Shown: positions 1 to 9,835 of the stretch, piece by piece | How the letters are laid out: each line of letters opens with the position of its first letter | Numbering within the stretch: position 1 is the first letter of the stretch | From: Candidatus Hodarchaeota archaeon | Lineage (GTDB): Archaea; Asgardarchaeota; Heimdallarchaeia; Hodarchaeales; Hodarchaeaceae | Assembly (NCBI GenBank): GCA_016839665.1 | Contig: JAEOTU010000088.1 | Span: 1 to 9,835 of the forward strand | Direction of reading: 5' to 3' | Length of the DNA: 9,835 bases | Position numbers and translations under genes: made by a program | Notes under the pieces: generated by a model | Databases searched by the model: none | Told to the model about the DNA's origin: nothing | The model's input: only the letters and a program-made list of their open reading frames with translations

Positions 1-49
1 GTGAATAAGGTTGTATCTTTACAGAGGAAACGCTTGCAGAAGAGTTGTT

Positions 50-124
50 GGGCGGGTAGCCTAGTCAGGATAGGGCACAGGCCCCCTAAGCCTGTGGTCG
101 TGGGTTCGAATCCCACCCCGCCCG
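50..124 (+). tRNA. tRNA-Arg (anticodon CCT), integration target
   Basis: The full cloverleaf can be folded by eye. Acceptor stem 50-56 pairs with 117-123, discriminator G124, D arm 59-76, anticodon stem 78-82 with 90-94, T stem 100-104 with 112-116, T loop TTCGAAT. The seven-base anticodon loop 83-89 reads CCCCTAA, giving anticodon CCT (85-87), which reads the AGG arginine codon; A37 fits an anticodon ending in U. No CCA is encoded and there is no intron, as is usual for archaea. Position 33 is C84 rather than the nearly universal U. The 3' part is the left attachment site of the element that follows. A run of six T at 157-162 could end transcription. Confidence 0.95.
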
Positions 125-129
125 TTCTG
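102..129 (+). repeat. attL: 28-bp core, tRNA 3' end
   Basis: The 28 bases are identical to 8836-8863. They cover the T-stem end, T loop, 3' acceptor strand and discriminator of the tRNA plus five bases beyond it (TTCTG). Similarity with the right-hand copy continues, with substitutions, to about 195-210, inside the integrase coding sequence. Confidence 0.9.
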
Positions 130-147
130 AACGAACCCCAGACGGTT

Positions 148-1326
148 CTAGCTACGTTTTTTGAAAATCTTGTTACTCTTGTAATCGCAGACATACTCAA
201 ATCCAGCTTCTACTAGTTCGCAGATTTCTTCTTCGGAATGAGCGACTTTTGAGATGAATTCATCGTTTGTGAAGTTTACTAGCTGCGTATAGATTTGAGT
301 GTTCGTTATGCTTCTATGACCAAGCTTTTGCATTACATGCATCATATCTTTAGTTTTATGATATTCCATAGTTGCGAACCAGTGTCTAAAGGTGTGAAAG
401 CTAATTTGCATCAATCTAGAGTTTTTCAGCTTTGCAGCAATTCTTCTGCGCTGATGTTGGTAGCTTTTCCGCATAGCATCAGCATTAGCATCAAATACTG
501 TTTCAGCATGTTTTGGAAGATAATTGAACATACTAACAAGAGTGTTAGAAATTCCTAGAACTCTAGCATTACTTCCCTTCTCTGGTGTAATACGTACAAC
601 TTTACTCTTGAAATCTACATCGGTCCACTTCAAGCTGCAACCTTCCCCACATCGCACTCCAGTTTCTTTTAGCAACTGTAGAAAAGTAGCCATACGCTTA
701 TTACTGCCAGCGATTAATTGATCAATTTCAGTTTCCTCTGGTATAAATGGAAGCTTCCTGATTCTCTTGTAAATTGGGGGTTTCCATGTAGAACCATGCA
801 TCTGAAGAAAACTTGTATAGGCATCGACTGCGTTCTCTTTTCTTCCATTACTCCATGTTTGTTTCGCAATCGTTTCCTTAATAGATTCAGGATCGTATAA
901 GTTGGCGCCAAGTTTTACCAATCGTTTCAGAAGTTTAGTTCGTCCTTTAATCGTAGCTTTTGCATACCCTTGCTTCAGTAGCCAAAAGGAATAGTCAACA
1001 ATTGCCCCTGTGAATTTACTAGTTGGTTTTGTGGTCCCCACAGACCTATCTTTTAATCCATTTTTTTGCTCTCTTTTCAGCGCCAAATTTATCATTCCCT
1101 GGTCAGGAACGCCTATTTGGCGATTCACAACTACGCTAGAAGAATTATTAAAAATAGTATGGAACCTACTTCTAGAAGGATCACTAAAACGACGCCCACA
1201 ATCCCTACATTGATACCTTTGTACGTCGCCATCACCAACCCTGCGAAAACCAGCCTTCCAGATCCTACCACAACCACAAAAAGGACACCTAACAAAAGAA
1301 AGCCTGGTCGCAGCTGGGACCCTCAT
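148..1326 (-). CDS. int: Tyrosine recombinase (integrase) with N-terminal zinc ribbon
   Basis: This 392-aa integrase catalyses site-specific insertion and excision at the tRNA-Arg site. The catalytic set is complete: R225 in TGVRCGE, a lysine in the PEKGSNAR beta-hairpin (K250), H311-x-x-R314 in HTFRH, H337 in LGH, and nucleophile Y346 in IYTQL. Residues 14-43 form a four-Cys zinc ribbon (CPFC and CRDC) resembling those at the N-terminus of transposases, and residues about 105-190 look like the SAM-like core-binding domain. The tail (EAGFEYVCD, then a basic end) is typical of archaeal integrases. The ATG overlaps the upstream gene's TGA by 4 nt (ATGA), so translation is probably coupled. The TAG stop lies 18 bp from the attL core, so the att region overlaps the gene's last codons. 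The minus-strand transcript runs antisense into the tRNA with no obvious U-tract. Confidence 0.93.
   Translation of the reverse strand: MRVPAATRLSFVRCPFCGCGRIWKAGFRRVGDGDVQRYQCRDCGRRFSDPSRSRFHTIFNNSSSVVVNRQIGVPDQGMINLALKREQKNGLKDRSVGTTKPTSKFTGAIVDYSFWLLKQGYAKATIKGRTKLLKRLVKLGANLYDPESIKETIAKQTWSNGRKENAVDAYTSFLQMHGSTWKPPIYKRIRKLPFIPEETEIDQLIAGSNKRMATFLQLLKETGVRCGEGCSLKWTDVDFKSKVVRITPEKGSNARVLGISNTLVSMFNYLPKHAETVFDANADAMRKSYQHQRRRIAAKLKNSRLMQISFHTFRHWFATMEYHKTKDMMHVMQKLGHRSITNTQIYTQLVNFTNDEFISKVAHSEEEICELVEAGFEYVCDYKSNKIFKKRS
157..162 (+). terminator. T-tract, possible tRNA terminator
   Basis: Six consecutive T lie 33 nt after the tRNA 3' end, the only T-tract of this length nearby. Archaeal polymerase stops at such U-tracts. 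The same bases are two AAA lysine codons near the 3' end of the integrase on the other strand. In the right-hand decayed copy this run is interrupted (TTTCCT). Confidence 0.45.
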
Positions 1327-2015
1327 ACAATTCCAATCTTCTTATCCAAGCGAATCTTCCTAGGATTAAAAAATTCAATAATTCTTTCATGCTGGAACTC
1401 TAATCTTTCTGCCCAATCAGGATAGCAAAATTCAACCTCTATAGCTGTTGGGTGAGATCTATCACCTGTCTTTATCACTAATCCATTAGATTCCTTGAAA
1501 AAGTCAATCCTATTATTAGGAAGCTTTATCCCAGTATCAAAAGTAGCATGTGCACCTTTAACCCTAATTCTAGAAAGAATCAGATCAAGATCTTTAGAAT
1601 CTTTAATTAAATCAGTATAAGTAAACCCTCTACAGAATAATCCATAGACATGCCCTTGAGTAATTGGGTTTTTATTGATAAGAGATCGCATATACAGATT
1701 AACTCTACCAGTACTAGGAAACCACTCCATACGACCCAACGGATCTTTCCAAGTCAACATATGATTCTTAGATTTTGTCCGATTCCAACCTTCCTTAACA
1801 GCCCTATCCAGATCAAGGCTAGGAATTCCCTTCACATACCATCGACGCTTATGAAAATTTGGGCGTTTTGGCCCTAGCCCATTTTTATAGTGAGTCTTTA
1901 GAAAGTCTGATCGGATATTATCAACATATCCTTTCTTTTCAGGCCATGGAAAATTGAGAAATTTACATATATAACGTGCTGTAAGATACTGATTTTTCCT
2001 TAAGAGCTTCAGCAC
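1323..2015 (-). CDS. Uncharacterised winged-helix-like protein coupled to the integrase
   Basis: This 230-aa basic protein is not a family I recognise. Residues 1-40 (LLRKNQYLTARYICKFL and following) look like the start of a winged helix. The rest is mixed alpha/beta and ends in a charged stretch (AIEVEF, then FNPRKIRL). It is directly upstream of int and overlaps it by 4 nt, so it may help integration or excision, or regulate int; that is context only. The GTG at 2015 has no Shine-Dalgarno sequence at a usable distance. The frame stays open for 25 sense codons upstream, where SKSIRSRV extends the putative first helix, until a TGA at 2091-2093. Beyond that TGA the same frame continues to an ATG at 2183. 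The true N-terminus is therefore doubtful: either a shortened protein starts at GTG, or the gene is broken or read through. Confidence 0.7.
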   Translation of the reverse strand: MLKLLRKNQYLTARYICKFLNFPWPEKKGYVDNIRSDFLKTHYKNGLGPKRPNFHKRRWYVKGIPSLDLDRAVKEGWNRTKSKNHMLTWKDPLGRMEWFPSTGRVNLYMRSLINKNPITQGHVYGLFCRGFTYTDLIKDSKDLDLILSRIRVKGAHATFDTGIKLPNNRIDFFKESNGLVIKTGDRSHPTAIEVEFCYPDWAERLEFQHERIIEFFNPRKIRLDKKIGIV

Positions 2016-2242: not shown

Positions 2243-2704
2243 ATGCGTAATTACAATTCTAAAGGAGATCTGGAAGGCATAATTATTCAAGCAATTATTC
2301 ATACTCAAGAAGGTAATGTAAAAGAACTTCGCTGGTCGGAAATCAGAGATGCAATATTGAGCGTTATGGCTTTTGAGAATACAGATCCGCCACCCCATTT
2401 TAATGTAAAAATCACAAGAATCTTGAACCGTCTTGTGAAAAAAGGCCTGCTTCTTAAACATGAGAAAGGGCATAAGAATACATCTTATTCTTTGAACGAA
2501 GAAAATTATGATTTTTCAACTATGCGTCCTGGAATTTCTGTATTTGGAGTGGGAACTTTCAAACCTGGCGACACTTACTTAGAGTTCAAGAAGAAGTTAT
2601 TTAATCGTATGGAAAAAGAATTTGGATTTAAGAAAATGTATGATGAACTTGTAAGATTTACATCTAAAAATTACATTAATTCAGAATTTTATTCTTTTAA
2701 ATAG
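2243..2704 (+). CDS. Winged-helix DNA-binding protein, probable element regulator
   Basis: This 153-aa cytoplasmic protein has a winged helix in residues about 8-85: helices around EGIIIQAI and WSEIRDAIL, a recognition-like helix KITRILNRLVKKGLL, then a wing (HEKGHKNTSYSL). The second half is basic and alpha-helical (FKKKLFNRMEKEFGF) and could serve dimerisation. It is transcribed away from the integrase operon from a shared promoter, as expected for a regulator of integration genes or of itself; its target is inferred. ATG at 2243 is chosen because the TATA element lies about 30 nt upstream and there is no competing start. It does not closely resemble a named family I can assign with confidence, such as PadR or MarR. 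A 174-bp gap follows before the next gene on the same strand. Confidence 0.72.
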   Translation: MRNYNSKGDLEGIIIQAIIHTQEGNVKELRWSEIRDAILSVMAFENTDPPPHFNVKITRILNRLVKKGLLLKHEKGHKNTSYSLNEENYDFSTMRPGISVFGVGTFKPGDTYLEFKKKLFNRMEKEFGFKKMYDELVRFTSKNYINSEFYSFK

Positions 2705-2878: not shown

Positions 2879-3931
2879 TTGGCGAATCTCATGCTAGAGA
2901 AGTTGAACCCGGAAATTTACTTGCAGCACAAAAGCCTTTTTTTTCGAGTGATTCAATCAGAGACCATTGGAATGACTGTCTACGACCTGCCAGATCTTTT
3001 GAAATGGATAGCTGCTTATCGTTGCAATAAGTGTACTCAGATTGCAATTTTCGAGGGTGAGGCAGAATGCTTCGATCATCAACAACGCGAGATGGGGTTT
3101 GAAACATTCTATGGTTCGACTGACATTCTTTATTGTCCAAATTGTGATGAAGAAATTACTTTCGAGTCTTTCATTAGTTATTATGCTATGTCTTGGTTTT
3201 GCGAATTTGAATGTGATAATGCAGAATTGGTTCAAATCAATCAACTTCGCTTATATTTGAAAGCACTGCACGAAAGTAAAATGGAACTAAGAAAACTGCA
3301 GAGTAAAGAAAAAGACATACTGCGCAGACTTGAGCTTCTGGCTGAACATGCAAAAAAGATGAATGGATACATTTTGATCGTAGAAGGTGATGATGACCTG
3401 GAAGTTTGGAATCGATTGCTTATGACCAAAAACGTAGATTTGACTAAGATAGATATAGCTAAATATGGAGAGGGGGGAATGGATGCTGCAATCAAAGCAG
3501 CGAAATTCTTCAAAGGAAAGGTCCTCAAAACTATTCCTCATAAATTGATAATTGACTCAGACAACATGGGAGATGAGATAAAAAATAAACTTCGTAAAAG
3601 TGGGATAAAGAGCTATCATATACTCGAGAAGAAAGAAATAGAGTCCTACCTCATAGAACCCAAAGCTCTTTCTCAGATTCTCAATATTGACATGAAAACA
3701 ATTGATGAGGAGCTTAATAATATTGGTGCAAACCCAGGAAAAGAGCAGTTGGATCATATATTCAGGACGTTTACTGGAAAAAAGGCAACATCAAGTGCAA
3801 AAGGTCTTGTAGCTGGAGCTTTGGAAAAAACACCCATTGAGATAGATGAAATTATTAACAATATAAAACTTGAAATCGTTAAGAATGCCCCAATAATTCG
3901 TGAGTATGAAAACTACGCAGACTACGAGTAG
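2879..3931 (+). CDS. Zinc-ribbon/TOPRIM protein (OLD- or DUF4435-like TOPRIM)
   Basis: 350 aa. Residues 49-89 carry two CxxC pairs (CNKC at 49-52, CPNC at 86-89) that should bind zinc. Residues about 120-160 are a charged, probably coiled-coil linker. The C-terminal part is a TOPRIM fold of the kind in OLD-family nucleases: the VEGDDD glutamate (E169), a DSD acidic pair (D226, D228), then the KKEIESYLIEP segment that often follows the TOPRIM core in this group. TOPRIM domains use these acids with Mg2+ to cut or transfer DNA or RNA strands. No ATPase domain is fused or adjacent, unlike OLD proteins, so it may act alone or be a toxin-like effector; this is inferred. TTG at 2879 has a plausible TATA box; ATG at 2891 is the alternative start. 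Neither has a Shine-Dalgarno sequence. Confidence 0.75.
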   Translation: MANLMLEKLNPEIYLQHKSLFFRVIQSETIGMTVYDLPDLLKWIAAYRCNKCTQIAIFEGEAECFDHQQREMGFETFYGSTDILYCPNCDEEITFESFISYYAMSWFCEFECDNAELVQINQLRLYLKALHESKMELRKLQSKEKDILRRLELLAEHAKKMNGYILIVEGDDDLEVWNRLLMTKNVDLTKIDIAKYGEGGMDAAIKAAKFFKGKVLKTIPHKLIIDSDNMGDEIKNKLRKSGIKSYHILEKKEIESYLIEPKALSQILNIDMKTIDEELNNIGANPGKEQLDHIFRTFTGKKATSSAKGLVAGALEKTPIEIDEIINNIKLEIVKNAPIIREYENYADYE

Positions 3932-4211: not shown

Positions 4212-4961
4212 TCACGTGGTTGATACTGGATCTCGCAAATATTCGATAATTATGCTTGGATCATGTTCACAGAAATTATGCCGTTTATACAGGTTGTGTA
4301 GAGCCCTAATATCTAAGTCCATCTCAATCTTTAACGGAAATCCTAATGTCCTAATTTCTCCTGGTCTTATTGGGGAAATGTGTGAAGGGTGAACCCGATC
4401 TTCTAACAGTAGTCTTTGAATTATTTTTTGAATTTTTTGCTCTGTATCGAATTTTCCTTCACAAAGTGAACGGACATATTGTTTGGATTGCTCGATCATC
4501 CTTCTACCACTGGTTTTTATTACGGAATCATCACTCTCCATTAAATCTAAAGCTGAGACAAAATTATCTCCATGTAAAAACTGTGGATCAACTGGACTAA
4601 GGATAGCATTGGGGTGCATTATCAAGTGTTTCCCAGAGATGGCTATTAAAGTAGCAGCACTAAGCGCTTGCTCAGGAACGATAATTCGTACTTCCCCGAC
4701 TCTTTCATACAAGCAAGTAGCAATTCGGTATCCTGTAAATGTATATCCACCAACGCTATTAATGAGTACAGTAAGTGGTGTTGTTTCTCCTATCTCCTCT
4801 AAAGCTAATTGGAAATCGTCAAATGTTCTTTCGTTTATTATTCCTTCATTACCATTAGTAATGTGTAATCTATTTCTGTAAAATGTAATAACCTTGGATT
4901 GAAATTTCTCTTCAAGCTTTTTAATTACTCTGAGTCTGTCAAGTACTTCGCAAAATCTCAT
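4212..4961 (-). CDS. SDH-family Clp-fold serine proteinase, third gene of the RM operon
   Basis: This 249-aa protein resembles the serine dehydrogenase proteinase (SDH_sah) family of the ClpP/crotonase fold. INSVGG (67-72) forms the oxyanion-hole strand, as the TPGG-type motif does in relatives. VPEQALSAAT (95-104) places the likely nucleophile at S101, and MHPNAILSPVDPQ (115-127) is the characteristic following block, where the family's second catalytic residue or substrate-pocket residues are expected. No signal peptide or clear membrane helix is visible, so it is probably cytoplasmic, unlike SppA-type relatives. ATG 4961 lies 5 bp after the hsdS stop; the ribosome site (GAGCTGA) is weak, suggesting translational coupling. 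Tight linkage to hsdS points to a role with the restriction system, either controlling its level or acting as effector; that is inferred. Family assignment is by motif, without alignment. Confidence 0.82.
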   Translation of the reverse strand: MRFCEVLDRLRVIKKLEEKFQSKVITFYRNRLHITNGNEGIINERTFDDFQLALEEIGETTPLTVLINSVGGYTFTGYRIATCLYERVGEVRIIVPEQALSAATLIAISGKHLIMHPNAILSPVDPQFLHGDNFVSALDLMESDDSVIKTSGRRMIEQSKQYVRSLCEGKFDTEQKIQKIIQRLLLEDRVHPSHISPIRPGEIRTLGFPLKIEMDLDIRALHNLYKRHNFCEHDPSIIIEYLRDPVSTT

Positions 4962-4966
4962 AGCAG

Positions 4967-6355
4967 TCAGCTCGTGATGTGTGCACGCTTTTTCAGAAAG
5001 TTTTCTACATAATTTATTGACCTCTTGATACTTTTCTGGCTTTTTTTCAAGGATTCATAGGATTCTCTTATTAAATCTCCAACATCATTTTGCATCTGCC
5101 TTGGAATTTTTGGCAACTGAATCTTTTTTAGAGATCTTAGTGAAACTGATTGCATTATTGTACCTGCAATCCTTTGTTGAAGCTGGCTTTGAAAGATTCT
5201 ACTTCTTAGTAAAGCCAATAGAAACCAACTTTCGTAAGCTTTTGAACGCACTACATAGAATCCAGTGCTTCCCACCATTCCATGATACTCATTGGTAACA
5301 ATTGAGATTTTATCGAATGAGCCCCTTAGGTAGGGAATGAGAACATCACCTTTTGACAGAAGCATTTTCGCCCTTGACGGGGCTTTATGACCTAATACTT
5401 TGGAGTAACTTTCAATGTTGCCAAATGTTGGAGAAATATTAGATAATTCAATATAGCAAAATTTTTTGCTTGGAGTATCTTTAGGCTTTACCTTCCTTGA
5501 CGAGACTGTTATAATATCTCCGAACTTCATCAATGGATAATTGCTTTTCTTTATTTCATCCAAAAGCTCTGAGTAGTCAGGTAAATGCTGTTCTGAGCTC
5601 CATCCGCTCATATTTTCGATATCAGAAAAAGTTACTTGAAAAGTTCTCTGTCTTCTTGGATTATAATTTTCTAGACCAAGAATTACATCCAGCTTATGAA
5701 GAGCTTCCCTATAGAATTTTCTGGCTTCACTATATTTCTCTATGCTTTTGTTAACCCAATTGCAAATCATTTGCTGTTTATCATCAGGGATAATTGGAAC
5801 AGGTAGATCCCTAACTGGTCTCAATTCAAGATGTGGGTGTGTAAGTCGAGATCGATTTCTTTCAAACCATCGCTTCCCAAACCAGGAGGCAAGATATATG
5901 CACACATATTCTGGAAGAATTTTTCTAGTTTTTATTGATATTCCAATAACATCTTGACTAATGTTCACCATTGGCATATAATTAGGAATAATTGCTACTT
6001 CTCCTATCGTTCCACCCTTTGAAACAACAATATCCCTAGGTTGAAGAGAAGTTTTTTTTTCGTCATTATTACGTTCTTCAGATATGAATGTCAAATTATT
6101 CTCATCAATCATTAAATTCTTGATATTTGACACACGTATGAAAGGAATTCCTTGATCTTTGTACTCAGTTTTTAAGATAGAAAAAATGCCTTTTCTTATC
6201 CTCGATGATATGCTTCTCAGGGAAACTATCTTAAGGTCAGATTTTTCTATCAGGAATTCTAAAACTTTTTCCAACTCTAAATATGAAGGGTGAAAATACT
6301 CTGCATCCATTCTTGAGGTGATTTTTGAAAATTGTACTGTAGAAATAATGGGCAA
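4967..6355 (-). CDS. hsdS: Type I-like DNA specificity subunit (two TRDs)
   Basis: 462 aa, with the normal two-half layout of HsdS. The first target-recognition domain is about 40-193 (KGGTIGEVAI is a typical TRD block), followed by central conserved helices about 194-228. The second TRD is about 258-418 (KGDVLIPYLRGSFDKISIV, then GTIMQSVSLRSLKKIQLP), followed by C-terminal conserved helices to 457. Each TRD reads half of a split target, and the helices set the spacer and dock the methyltransferase. The start is TTG at 6355, 12 bp after the hsdM stop, with AAGGGG 8 nt upstream as ribosome site. The N-terminus (RMDAEYFHPSY) is shared with many S subunits paired with nuclease-fused methylases, by recognition. 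The two TRDs are clearly different, so the target should be asymmetric. No frameshift seen. Confidence 0.92.
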   Translation of the reverse strand: MPIISTVQFSKITSRMDAEYFHPSYLELEKVLEFLIEKSDLKIVSLRSISSRIRKGIFSILKTEYKDQGIPFIRVSNIKNLMIDENNLTFISEERNNDEKKTSLQPRDIVVSKGGTIGEVAIIPNYMPMVNISQDVIGISIKTRKILPEYVCIYLASWFGKRWFERNRSRLTHPHLELRPVRDLPVPIIPDDKQQMICNWVNKSIEKYSEARKFYREALHKLDVILGLENYNPRRQRTFQVTFSDIENMSGWSSEQHLPDYSELLDEIKKSNYPLMKFGDIITVSSRKVKPKDTPSKKFCYIELSNISPTFGNIESYSKVLGHKAPSRAKMLLSKGDVLIPYLRGSFDKISIVTNEYHGMVGSTGFYVVRSKAYESWFLLALLRSRIFQSQLQQRIAGTIMQSVSLRSLKKIQLPKIPRQMQNDVGDLIRESYESLKKSQKSIKRSINYVENFLKKRAHITS

Positions 6356-6367
6356 ATTGAAAGCCCC

Positions 6368-8266
6368 TTAAAACTTCAAGTGGTTCCTCACTTTAAATTT
6401 GTTAAAGGACTCAATGATTTCTGGAATATCTGTGTCTATTGCAGCTTCATCTTCATTGTTTACAACTTTCCCTGAATTATCAATGAGCTGTCCAAGATTA
6501 TTCTTTTTATAAATGGTTTTTCCTCTAATGTCATAACCTATGCGTTCACAAATTGCCATGAAAATTGGGTAATTTTCTTTTTTTATGAGGGCAAGTTCAC
6601 TAGGTTGCATTTTCTGTAGGAATAAAACAGATGTTTTGCTACCCGCACCATGCGGTACAAAAGTTTCCTGAGGAAGAGAAATTACTGCGATAATTCGTGA
6701 CTTGTGCTTAATGTATTCTCGAACATAGTTTGATGTAGCGTTTGTTAAAATTCCATCTGGCAAAACAATTGCCATTCTGCCATGATTAACTAAAAATTCT
6801 AAACATCTTTCAAGGAACAAAATATCGGGTACTTGACTTTCCAGTGGGTACATTGTCTTTTCTAGTTCTTCAGATCCCTTGACCCCTTTCCATCGATACG
6901 CGAGATCAAATCGTTCAAGTATGAACTTTGATGTAACCCGACCCTTTGTTCCGAACGGAGGGTTTGTAAGGATAATTTGGAACATATTTGCTGTAATATC
7001 GCCTGCTCCTGCTAGAAGTGCTGCTTCTCTAATCCGTTGAAGTGAATCTAGAGAGTTAGTTGAAAATATGCCAGTATGCCCATCGTCGTAAAGAATCATA
7101 TGCATTTTAGAAACTCTAGCCAAATCTGGATTTATATCAATGCCTCGTATGTAAGTGCGAGCAAATTTTTCTTTGATCTTGTCACGTATTGATTTTGATA
7201 GGTCTTGCCTTTTCTCATCGATTTTTTTAAAGACATGTTTCATTGCTTGAACCAGAAAACCTCCAGACCCAACTGCAGGGTCGAGAATTTTTTCGTCTTC
7301 TTTAGGGTCAAGTATTTTTATAGCAAGTTGAAGTATCGGATATGGCGTAAAAAACTCTCCTCGTTCTCCTCGTTCATGTGCATGAACGAATGTTTGAAAA
7401 GCTATTCCTTTCACATCTGCAGGTGTGCCAATTAAACTATATTTCTGAAGGCGACTAACGATAAAGGCTATTGTTAGTGGGAGAAGATTTATTTTCTCAT
7501 TAATATCAGGGAATACATCGTGGTATTGATCCTTTACTTTAGTGAATAACGTTTGTATTCTACTTAGGAACTCATTTGAGAATCCTGATTCAAGCTCATC
7601 TTTCTCTTTTTCAGTTATTCTAAATTTGCATTTTTGGTCTGTGCTTCTTTCATCAACCATTTTAATGAAGATAAGTTTTAGGACTTCATTGAAAACTTTC
7701 TCTTTCAACAATCCTTCGTTTGCATATATGTAGTTATGGCAAGTCTCAAATACTGTCTTAAGCTCAGAGGCTGGAACGAGATTTTTCTTAAGATAAAGCC
7801 CTACATCTTCTAAAGTTTCACCTTTCTTCGGAATATCTGCAATCTCTTTAAAAAACGGTCTTTTTTTAAGGCTTTGAAGATGAATAATTTCTTTACCGTT
7901 AAACCACACGCCAAATTCCGCAGTGGTAGGACTAAGATATGATTTTAATTGGTCTATTCCGTCTTTTCTTTCTTCTCTCTTTGTTTCAACTATAATATAG
8001 ATATTGTCTTGCCTTTTTTTATTACCATAAAAGACAACAATGTCCGCTGGTCCGATTTTCTTGCTACCTTTAGTAATGTAAAATTCAGGTACTGTTTGGA
8101 TTTGATCTGGAGAGTATCCATACTCTTCGACAAGCTTTTGCACCATTATCTGACGTACTCTTTCTTCTGGTGTAGCAGGTAATCTTTTACCTGTTATGTA
8201 ATCTACAACTTCAGGTTTCCTTTCAACAAGAAGCGCTCTACCGCTAAGATTAAGTTGTTTAGTCAA
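6368..8266 (-). CDS. hsdM: Nuclease-methyltransferase fusion: HsdR N-terminal domain + HsdM
   Basis: 632 aa, longer than a usual HsdM because of the extra N-terminal domain. Residues about 30-130 match the HsdR N-terminal PD-(D/E)XK nuclease pattern: D75 in PADIVVF, E94-x-K96 in VETKRE, Q106 in QLKSYL. Residues about 150-290 are the helical HsdM N-terminal region. The N6-adenine methyltransferase follows: FFTP (305-308), AdoMet motif I DPAVGSGGF (329-337), GIDINP (375-380) and catalytic NPPF (435-438). With HsdS it should methylate an asymmetric target and may cut DNA using its own nuclease domain. No helicase or HsdR gene is present, so it resembles BcgI-type fused RM enzymes more than classical type I. 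The start is TTG at 8266 with AGGA 5 nt upstream. First gene of the hsdM-hsdS-protease operon. All key residues of both activities are intact. Confidence 0.92.
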   Translation of the reverse strand: MTKQLNLSGRALLVERKPEVVDYITGKRLPATPEERVRQIMVQKLVEEYGYSPDQIQTVPEFYITKGSKKIGPADIVVFYGNKKRQDNIYIIVETKREERKDGIDQLKSYLSPTTAEFGVWFNGKEIIHLQSLKKRPFFKEIADIPKKGETLEDVGLYLKKNLVPASELKTVFETCHNYIYANEGLLKEKVFNEVLKLIFIKMVDERSTDQKCKFRITEKEKDELESGFSNEFLSRIQTLFTKVKDQYHDVFPDINEKINLLPLTIAFIVSRLQKYSLIGTPADVKGIAFQTFVHAHERGERGEFFTPYPILQLAIKILDPKEDEKILDPAVGSGGFLVQAMKHVFKKIDEKRQDLSKSIRDKIKEKFARTYIRGIDINPDLARVSKMHMILYDDGHTGIFSTNSLDSLQRIREAALLAGAGDITANMFQIILTNPPFGTKGRVTSKFILERFDLAYRWKGVKGSEELEKTMYPLESQVPDILFLERCLEFLVNHGRMAIVLPDGILTNATSNYVREYIKHKSRIIAVISLPQETFVPHGAGSKTSVLFLQKMQPSELALIKKENYPIFMAICERIGYDIRGKTIYKKNNLGQLIDNSGKVVNNEDEAAIDTDIPEIIESFNKFKVRNHLKF

Positions 8267-8364: not shown

Positions 8365-8583
8365 TTATTCCGTGTTTGAAATTATATGTATGATAGGTTC
8401 CTTTCGATTTAATTTGAAGAAATAGCAACGCCTCCAACGAGAATGTAATACTTTCTTTTTCACAAGGTAATGTTTGCATCTATAAAAAAGAACACGCTTT
8501 TCATTACGACATATTTCCATATTTTGACAGTCAATACATCTGACGTATCCCTTATTGTAGCCACTTCTCCCATCGACTGGCAA
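8365..8583 (-). CDS. Small Cys-rich, probably zinc-binding protein upstream of hsdM
   Basis: 72 aa. Residues 16-37 carry C16-x2-C19-x5-C25-x11-C37 followed by H39, a plausible single zinc site (CIDCQNMEIC, then RCKHY). The C-terminal half is basic and aromatic (HSRWRRCYFF). I do not recognise the family. TTG at 8583 is chosen because AGGAG lies 9 nt upstream and an ATTTAAAT box about 55 nt upstream; this is the best ribosome site in the window and makes the gene credible despite its size. It is on the same strand as the RM operon and ends 98 bp before hsdM, so it may be a co-expressed accessory or regulator of that operon. There is no helix-turn-helix, so it is not a classic C protein. No nearby start codon gives a longer product. 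Confidence 0.62.
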   Translation of the reverse strand: MPVDGRSGYNKGYVRCIDCQNMEICRNEKRVLFYRCKHYLVKKKVLHSRWRRCYFFKLNRKEPIIHIISNTE

Positions 8584-8835: not shown

Positions 8836-8863
8836 GGGTTCGAATCCCACCCCGCCCGTTCTG
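8836..8863 (+). repeat. attR: second copy of the 28-bp core
   Basis: Identical over 28 bp to 102-129: the 3' end of the tRNA plus TTCTG. The rest of the tRNA is absent here, so this copy is the partial one left at the far end of the element. Degenerate similarity to the left copy continues to about 8942. Confidence 0.9.
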
Positions 8864-8881
8864 GACGACCCCCAAGCGGTT

Positions 8882-8942
8882 TTACTTATGTTTCCTGAAA
8901 ATTCTTGCTACCGTTGAAATCACAAAGATCCTGAACCCAAAG
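8882..8942 (-). pseudogene. Decayed 3' end of a second integrase gene
   Basis: Read on the minus strand, this ends in IFRKHK then TAA (8882-8884), with CDFNGSK just before, apart by one extra base near 8903. The live integrase ends CDYKSNK, IFKKRS, stop, at the same distance from its att core. DNA similarity to 148-210 is plain, with several synonymous-type changes (for example Cys TGC to TGT). Only about 20 codons are recognisable; upstream of them the frame is closed by stops. It is probably the remnant of another, related element that used the same tRNA site. Confidence 0.6.
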
Positions 8943-8944
8943 TC

Positions 8945-9075
8945 ATAATTTTAGTCTAAACTATATGGAACTCTAGTCTTGTTTTATAGACTTTGCCAAA
9001 TTTTCTTCTTCTATTGACTTGGAGCTTTCCAGAAGTGATAAATTAATCTAAGTCCTTGATAGTATGGGAGAGATC
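8945..9075. other. Intergenic sequence before the chromosomal gene
   Basis: No gene seen. GATAAATTAAT (9037-9047) is a candidate TATA element for the gene at 9076, and GGGAG (9066-9070) is its ribosome site. Confidence 0.4.
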
Positions 9076-9835
9076 ATGAGAAGGATAACCAAATTTCTTC
9101 TGTTTTGGATCTTATTTTCACTAGTTTCCATAGTTTCTGCACCTTCACCTTTGCAGACAGAGATAAAATTGGAGCCTTCTACGGTTGTGTTTGGACCAGA
9201 GTATTGTGTAGGTAAAACATTCACTATCTCAAGCAAAGTTTACGATGTGAGTAGCCTTACAGGAGTAGGCTTCCAGATCAAGTGGAACACAACATACCTT
9301 TCGTATGAGGATCATGTGATTAAAATTCCTGTTGAAGAACATCCTGATGGGATCTTACATGAACCAATAATATTGGTTGCCGACACCATTAACAAGCCTG
9401 CAGGTACTTACGATCTTGCTGCTAGCACACTTGGCGGAGACTTGTTTACTGGTTCTGGAACTGCCTTTGAAATTACTTTCAAAGTGAAATATCAACCAGT
9501 GTTTCCTGAGCCTGATGCAGACTTCTGGATAGAATACACAAACCTTGGTCTCGGAATTCCTGATGTTCTAGAAGGTTCCCCCTTAAGTCCTATGCCTCCT
9601 ATACCAGTGAATTGTCACGTGACTATTCATGCGAATCCAATGGTGCCATTAAAGGTTATGAGCCAACCATCAGATATAATGTTCTCAGTTGATGACTCTC
9701 TCCATGTCACTCCTTGGGTTGAACAATTCAACCACCATGAGAATATATCTGTCGTAATGCCTGAATTCCATATTGACTCTGGGAGGTTTTACTGGAGCAG
9801 ATGGAGTGATGGAGTATTAAATCGGTCAAGAACTA
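9076..9835 (+). CDS. Secreted cohesin-like surface protein (3' end beyond window)
   Basis: 253 residues are visible before the window ends. Residues 1-22 are a signal peptide: basic start MRRITK, hydrophobic core, cleavage likely after VSA (20-22). Residues about 27-150 resemble archaeal cohesin-type beta-sandwich domains: a proline-containing opening strand, VGKTFTISSKVYDVSSLTG, then FQIKWNTTYLSY. Residues about 185-253 resemble the short Ig/PEGA-like repeats of archaeal surface proteins (a VDD...TPWV turn and FYWSRWSDG). The protein is probably exported and surface-bound; its ligand is unknown. ATG 9076 is preferred over the in-frame ATG at 9064 because GGGAG, which overlaps that earlier codon, sits 5 nt before it. 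It is chromosomal, outside the element. One cysteine-poor, threonine- and proline-rich product, consistent with an extracellular protein. Confidence 0.82.
   Translation, partial: MRRITKFLLFWILFSLVSIVSAPSPLQTEIKLEPSTVVFGPEYCVGKTFTISSKVYDVSSLTGVGFQIKWNTTYLSYEDHVIKIPVEEHPDGILHEPIILVADTINKPAGTYDLAASTLGGDLFTGSGTAFEITFKVKYQPVFPEPDADFWIEYTNLGLGIPDVLEGSPLSPMPPIPVNCHVTIHANPMVPLKVMSQPSDIMFSVDDSLHVTPWVEQFNHHENISVVMPEFHIDSGRFYWSRWSDGVLNRSRT

Follow-up and report, generated by a model that had tools for sequence, protein, structure and literature searches.

The contig JAEOTU010000088.1 of a Candidatus Hodarchaeota archaeon (assembly GCA_016839665.1), analysed here as one stretch of 9,835 nucleotides (the window), carries a minus-strand operon in which the gene of an SDH-type serine protease follows the genes of a restriction-modification (RM) fusion and a specificity (S) subunit. 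The sequences indicate that the RM core resembles Type IIB rather than Type I enzymes and is a relative of MADS. The protease probably works together with the RM enzyme, either as a weapon activated by a trigger or as a brake on the RM enzyme. This view is based on the recurrence of the three genes in a second archaeal genome, on the shared occurrence of the protease and RM homologues on further contigs, on the single clade formed by the RM-linked proteases, and on the correlated divergence of both proteins.

The three open reading frames (ORFs) are separated by only 12 and 5 bp, in agreement with the preliminary description of this DNA, and their start codons are consistent with those of homologues. 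From this spacing, we infer a single transcript. The operon comprises the following genes.

6368..8266, minus strand: RM fusion of an N-terminal PD-(D/E)xK nuclease and an N6-adenine methylase, 632 amino acids, MAD2-like, TTG start
4967..6355, minus strand: specificity (S) subunit, 462 amino acids, MAD5-like, TTG start
4212..4961, minus strand: SDH-type (Clp-fold) serine protease, 249 amino acids, soluble, ATG start

All Pfam assignments exceeded the gathering scores. The RM fusion matched HSDR_N_2 (PF13588, 68 bits) and N6_Mtase (PF02384, 125 bits), the S subunit matched Methylase_S (PF01420, 47.5 bits), and the protease matched SDH_protease (PF01972, 80 bits, gathering score 31.3). The earlier naming of the genes as nuclease-methylase, S subunit and SDH protease is thus retained, but the designation HsdM is not appropriate for a Type IIB-like RM fusion.

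In the protease, S101, D125 and H194 were found by alignment in the S-D-H order of the PF01972 family; we take them, from the family name, to be the catalytic triad. The serine block and the soluble appearance described before were both recovered, the latter from the lack of a hydrophobic N-terminus (Kyte-Doolittle maximum −0.05 over the first 60 residues and 1.36 over the whole protein). An AlphaFold2 model of the protease reached a pLDDT (predicted local distance difference test) of 91.4. By sequence it is a relative of both the NfeD-type protease 1510-N and ClpP, and it scored 91.6 bits against the NF047768 equivalog model, which has a curated cut-off of 250 bits.

Recurrence and distribution of the pairing

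A scan of contigs with the SDH alignment yielded 61 pattern matches, of which one was confirmed. This locus (L001), in a metagenome-assembled genome (MAG) of the Nitrosopumilaceae, contains the three genes of the operon in unchanged order. The identities to the window proteins are 47% for SDH, 43% for S and 60% for RM, low enough to show that the pairing is not confined to this genome or its close kin. Because the integrases of L001 and the window share no clear similarity (best score 21.6 bits, E 0.032), the cassette apparently resides in elements of two kinds. The SDH profile matched in 134 of 398 genomes from the phylum to which this MAG belongs; the MAG scored 325 bits, and no other genome exceeded 126 bits.

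A profile search returned 200 SDH proteins, 120 of which were listed. The top 26, including the window protease, scored at least 167 bits and are referred to as RM-linked, and the next protein scored 120 bits. Co-occurrence was assumed when an SDH protein and an RM homologue lay on contigs of exactly equal nucleotide size. Each protein cluster was represented by the size of its longest contig, and the RM side consisted of the 120 listed of 2047 homologues, so that misses are to be expected. On contigs of 4.5 kb or more, nine of the 13 RM-linked SDH proteins other than the window protein shared a contig size with a listed RM homologue (10 of 14 with the window included), compared with one of 62 other SDH proteins (Fisher p = 5e-8); this single match (4568 nt) looks like chance. 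Two proteins whose rows list no contig size (P0218 and P0234) had been dropped from the 94 other SDH rows. On contigs below 4.5 kb, none of the 12 RM-linked proteins was matched, as expected if the three genes span about 4.1 kb. Of the matched contigs, six measure only 4.6 to 5.9 kb, and the SDH and RM genes must therefore be close neighbours there, while the matches on contigs of 48 and 95 kb indicate co-residence only. Four RM-linked proteins on contigs of 7 to 145 kb (P0008, P0017, P0018 and P0149) had no partner among the 120 listed RM homologues. L001 is an additional case from the contig scan, outside the list of 26 proteins.

One of the nine matched proteins (P0151) joins PF01420 and PF01972 on a single chain, which runs from inside the S gene straight to the middle of SDH. 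As proof of a contact between S and SDH it was rejected, since this jump and the absence of the catalytic serine make it likely a deletion or an assembly chimera. It was excluded from the SDH tree but kept among the matches, because its contig size equals that of an RM homologue (P0024); without it, the count is eight of 12.

The SDH tree comprised 26 RM-linked rows (P0151 removed, L001 added) and 67 others (38 of the 94 rows and 29 loci). All RM-linked rows were placed on one side of a branch with an SH-aLRT (Shimodaira-Hasegawa-like approximate likelihood ratio test) support of 100, against the 67 others. At the threshold chosen, a hydrophobic N-terminus was present in none of the 26 RM-linked rows and in 45 of the 67 others. 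The presumed triad is conserved in these rows as follows.

4659..4661, minus strand: codon of catalytic Ser101 (S in all 26 RM-linked and all 67 other rows)
4587..4589, minus strand: codon of Asp125 (D in 22 of the 26 RM-linked rows, E in the remaining four; D in all 67 others)
4380..4382, minus strand: codon of His194 (H in all 26 RM-linked and all 67 other rows)

Six of the proteins (P0008, P0017, P0018, P0143, P0145 and P0146) end in a cysteine-rich, zinc-ribbon-like tail, which, judged by eye, is absent from the window protease.

The distances among the RM proteins correlate with those among the proteases (Mantel r = 0.73, p = 0.0007, n = 10 pairs), to which shared host ancestry could contribute. 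Ordinary SDH proteases had no match to the RM or S of the window beside them (0 of 29 loci, each read with at most about 1.5 kb of flanking sequence), and neither had the SDH loci of plasmids and phages (0 of 5 loci examined, from 37 and 125 records). Most genes among the phage SDH matches (20 listed of 125 records) were annotated as Clp or head-maturation proteases. Viral contigs contained one weak SDH locus and no confirmed RM relative, and a distant-mode blastn search of plasmids with the cassette gave no match. The operon in L001, the co-occurrence counts, the single SDH clade and the correlated divergence bear out the earlier suggestion that the three genes are probably one system. For the check proposed earlier, conservation of the pairing across distant archaea and bacteria, L001 is an archaeal case; no bacterial example was found, the plasmid and phage RM loci examined giving 0 of 8.

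In a quick methylase tree, the 11 SDH-linked RM proteins (tagged by equal contig size, except for those of the window and L001) all fell into one clade of 38 rows (SH-aLRT 92). Within this clade, at least 11 of the 31 contigs of 4.5 kb or more, and at least five of the 17 of 8 kb or more, carry an RM-linked SDH, compared with none of the 59 and 25 listed RM contigs, respectively, that fall outside the clade. The protease is therefore an accessory. RM relatives are scarce at E ≤ 1e-90, occurring in two of 250 genomes of the family of G001 and three of 256 genomes of the class of G369. The SDH clade was not found in the latter 256 genomes at E ≤ 1e-38, an empty answer that carries no weight.

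In the open-licence literature, searched by titles and the openings of abstracts, there was no report of an SDH or ClpP-like protease paired with an RM system, and the accessible text of a paper on BREX (PMC12839542) mentions no such pairing. A dedicated protease tied to a stand-alone RM enzyme allows two questions to be asked of one small cassette, namely whether proteolysis can be switched on by an RM enzyme and whether a mobile RM system can bring its own brake.

The RM enzyme and its relation to MADS

Nuclease and methylase are found on one chain (PF13588 and PF02384 in a single ORF), and a separate S subunit with a target recognition domain (PF01420) is encoded by the next gene, as in Type IIB enzymes. 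The closest solved relative of the RM profile is the Type IIB enzyme RM.BsaXI (E 1.6e-50). This match spans profile positions 167 to 560 only; the nuclease domain was identified by Pfam and by its motif instead. A Type I system was rejected, as no helicase match occurred among the nine window ORFs scanned and the largest ORF of the window encodes 632 amino acids. An ORF of the size of HsdR is absent from the 9,835 nucleotides, though such a gene may lie beyond them. Alignment of the RM proteins located two conserved sites.

7979..8044, minus strand: nuclease site D75 ... E94-T-K96 of the RM fusion
6953..6964, minus strand: methylase motif NPPF, residues 435-438 of the RM fusion

Among the 120 listed of 2047 homologues, D75, E94 and K96 are kept in all 11 SDH-linked and in 108 of 109 other RM proteins, and they are also present in five of five outgroup RM proteins from small systems. 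In six further relatives from Thermoproteota, the site is kept in four and lost in one, an RM-S fusion in the genome G587, and the region is absent in one. For BsaXI, the nuclease residues E73, D90, E105 and K107 are backed by mutagenesis, according to the accessible part of PMC11997821. Since the site is intact in every protease-linked RM protein, the protease is no substitute for the cutter. In a genome of the family of the L001 MAG, an RM-S fusion of 848 amino acids with a degenerate nuclease site was observed (L067:87-2633).

The RM fusion matched the MAD2 model NF047738 (482 bits, cut-off 720) and the S subunit matched the MAD5 model NF047740 (164 bits, cut-off 400), both over nearly the full length. 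Membership in MADS was rejected, because both cut-offs were missed. The MAD6 kinase and the other MADS models had no match among the five window proteins scanned, the list of MADS genes having been taken from NCBIfam names and plasmid neighbourhoods. MAD2, MAD5 and the MAD6 kinase were found together, all above the cut-offs, on three plasmids (Hymenobacter, Piscinibacter and Bacteroides), where the kinase gene lies behind S. At the positions of E94 and K96, these three MAD2 proteins contain V/V/I and N/E/F, respectively, in all four MAFFT modes, and each has a (D/E)xK triplet shifted by three to four residues beyond these positions. Judging from these substitutions, the nuclease site has probably, though in view of the shifted triplet not certainly, been lost in the three MAD2 proteins. 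A review (PMC12904381) states, in its accessible text, that MADS restricts by unknown means. Type IIB enzymes and MADS may thus be linked through their related M and S cores, the cutting site being retained in the operon described here and apparently lost in MADS.

The gene behind S varies among the relatives and may be the MAD6 kinase, as on the three plasmids, or a 386-amino-acid gene followed by an ATPase. The latter arrangement occurs in an archaeal locus (L068:6640-12851), in which RM, S, the 386-amino-acid gene and a HAS-barrel/MAD8-like ATPase overlap one another in a row. Its nuclease site is intact, and the locus may stand midway between Type IIB and MADS. At another locus (L069:6085-10036), RM and S are followed by a 204-amino-acid gene that overlaps S and has no Pfam match.

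The element around the operon

The operon is flanked by two att-like direct repeats of 67 nt, which are 85% identical, match without exception in the first 28 nt and are spaced by 8734 bp.

49..125, plus strand: tRNA-Arg (CCT), likely integration site (ARAGORN; Rfam, 65 bits)
102..168, plus strand: attL-like repeat at the 3' end of the tRNA
8836..8902, plus strand: attR-like repeat
148..1326, minus strand: tyrosine recombinase (integrase; PF00589, 90 bits)

To judge from the repeats and the integrase, the operon is probably carried as cargo by an element of roughly 8.7 kb that has integrated here. Within it, a 350-amino-acid protein (2879-3931, plus strand) weakly resembles AriB/AriAB of PARIS (about 21 bits) and DUF3226 and may be the product of a second defence gene. 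A 153-amino-acid protein (2243-2704, plus strand) has weak, sub-threshold matches, which include winged-helix families. The gene of a 230-amino-acid protein (1323-2015, minus strand) overlaps the integrase start by 4 nt; its product has no Pfam match and no similarity to the protein encoded beside the L001 integrase. Upstream of the operon, a cysteine-rich ORF of 72 amino acids (8365-8583, minus strand), also without a Pfam match, may not be a gene. Outside the element, a surface-type protein begins within positions 9064-9834 (plus strand); its match to a cohesin domain is weak and below the threshold.

Possible roles of the protease and comparison with known systems

The reading that we favour, though with some reserve, is that of an effector or guard gated by the RM enzyme. 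The more specific form, in which the dedicated protease is under the control of a Type IIB-like RM enzyme and proteolysis is switched on by recognition of unmodified DNA or by jamming, is put forward more tentatively still. An (RM)2S-type complex would mark the host DNA and cut unmarked DNA, and the protease would be kept inactive by this complex or in its vicinity. An encounter of the enzyme with unmodified foreign DNA might trigger the release, as might jamming of the enzyme by an anti-restriction factor of the invader. As a second defensive layer, the freed protease would then cleave a single protein or a small number of proteins of the host or the invader, and this proteolysis would proceed without an unfoldase, which NfeD/SppA-type relatives are not known to need. 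An RM-gated additional activity is preferred because the RM enzyme looks complete and has relatives without the protease. The accessory status of the protease and the nuclease site kept in all 11 linked RM proteins likewise point to an addition to a working RM. If this is true, one small system would cut both DNA and protein, and it would represent a third outcome of a MAD2/MAD5-like core, beside plain two-gene cutting and MADS, in which the nuclease site was apparently lost and a kinase and an ATPase were gained.

Several observations weigh against an RM-gated effector. On 12 of the 17 clade contigs of at least 8 kb, no such protease was seen (its presence being a lower bound), and none of 17 more distant RM loci, nine from Thermoproteota and eight from plasmids or phages (picked from 23 and 15 records), had any SDH match. 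With protease-less relatives so common, the RM enzyme seems able to manage alone. No sensor- or inhibitor-like gene for the protease was recognised; its target, trigger, latency and contact with the RM enzyme are all presumed, and a regulator or a processing protease fits the data about as well.

The preliminary description had offered restriction alleviation and an effector as alternatives, of which we slightly favour the effector. In a self-contained alleviation, which we rank a close second and consider somewhat unlikely, the protease would cut or turn over the RM fusion or S until the host DNA is fully methylated; cutting would be delayed and the mobile element could enter naive hosts. Given the att-like repeats and the integrase, entry into unmethylated hosts would be part of the life of the element, and with an intact nuclease site such entry would be dangerous. 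The correlated divergence of RM and SDH suits a relation of enzyme and substrate, and host ClpXP is used in this way by Type IA and IB systems, according to the accessible part of PMC12707154. The target of ClpX named there is, however, the translocation-competent complex. Alleviation in the literal manner of ClpXP is less likely, because the operon contains neither an HsdR motor nor an unfoldase. Moreover, removal of the RM fusion would also remove methylation, as both activities reside on one polypeptide, unless the nuclease domain alone were cut, and it is this variant that holds the second rank. The 12 protease-free contigs of the same RM clade count against alleviation, too.

The co-inheritance with RM and the sequence relation to 1510-N and ClpP would also suit a helper in maturation or quality control, which trims or clears misassembled RM or S and is neither brake nor weapon; yet RM relatives without the protease are common, and we regard this role as improbable. 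An unrelated protease gene that came to lie behind S by chance would be in keeping with the patchy distribution and the mobile element. The recurrent linkage, the single RM-linked clade and the correlated divergence led us to reject such a hitchhiker as the principal explanation; with RM and S also missing beside the ordinary, plasmid and phage SDH loci, it is highly improbable.

Turning from these alternatives to the RM-gated protease that we favour, one possible logic is provided by PrrC, which is linked to a Type Ic RM system, silenced by it and freed by the phage protein Stp (accessible text of PMC2610378). As in PrrC-EcoprrI, an additional enzyme is encoded with the RM system; in contrast, PrrC is a tRNA nuclease, and no sequence relation is claimed. 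In the alleviation of EcoKI by ClpXP, a serine protease of the Clp type likewise works alongside an RM enzyme, but that protease is encoded by the host and, according to the accessible literature, depends on ClpX and a translocating HsdR, whereas the protease described here lies in the operon with neither. With the SDH family (PF01972/NF047768), it shares the Clp-type sequence relation and the S-D-H order; it differs in falling below the NF047768 cut-off, in lacking a hydrophobic N-terminus and in belonging to a fully supported clade of its own that is tied to RM. Like the Type IIB enzymes BsaXI and BcgI, the RM enzyme combines a nuclease with a PD-(D/E)xK site and an N6-adenine methylase in one polypeptide and has a separate S subunit, but the fusion is shorter (632 amino acids, compared with 916 in BsaXI) and a protease gene follows S. 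MADS shares the M gene before S and the matches of RM and S to the MAD2 and MAD5 models; the three MAD2 proteins above the cut-off are substituted at the positions of E94 and K96, whereas the RM fusion of the operon keeps its nuclease site.

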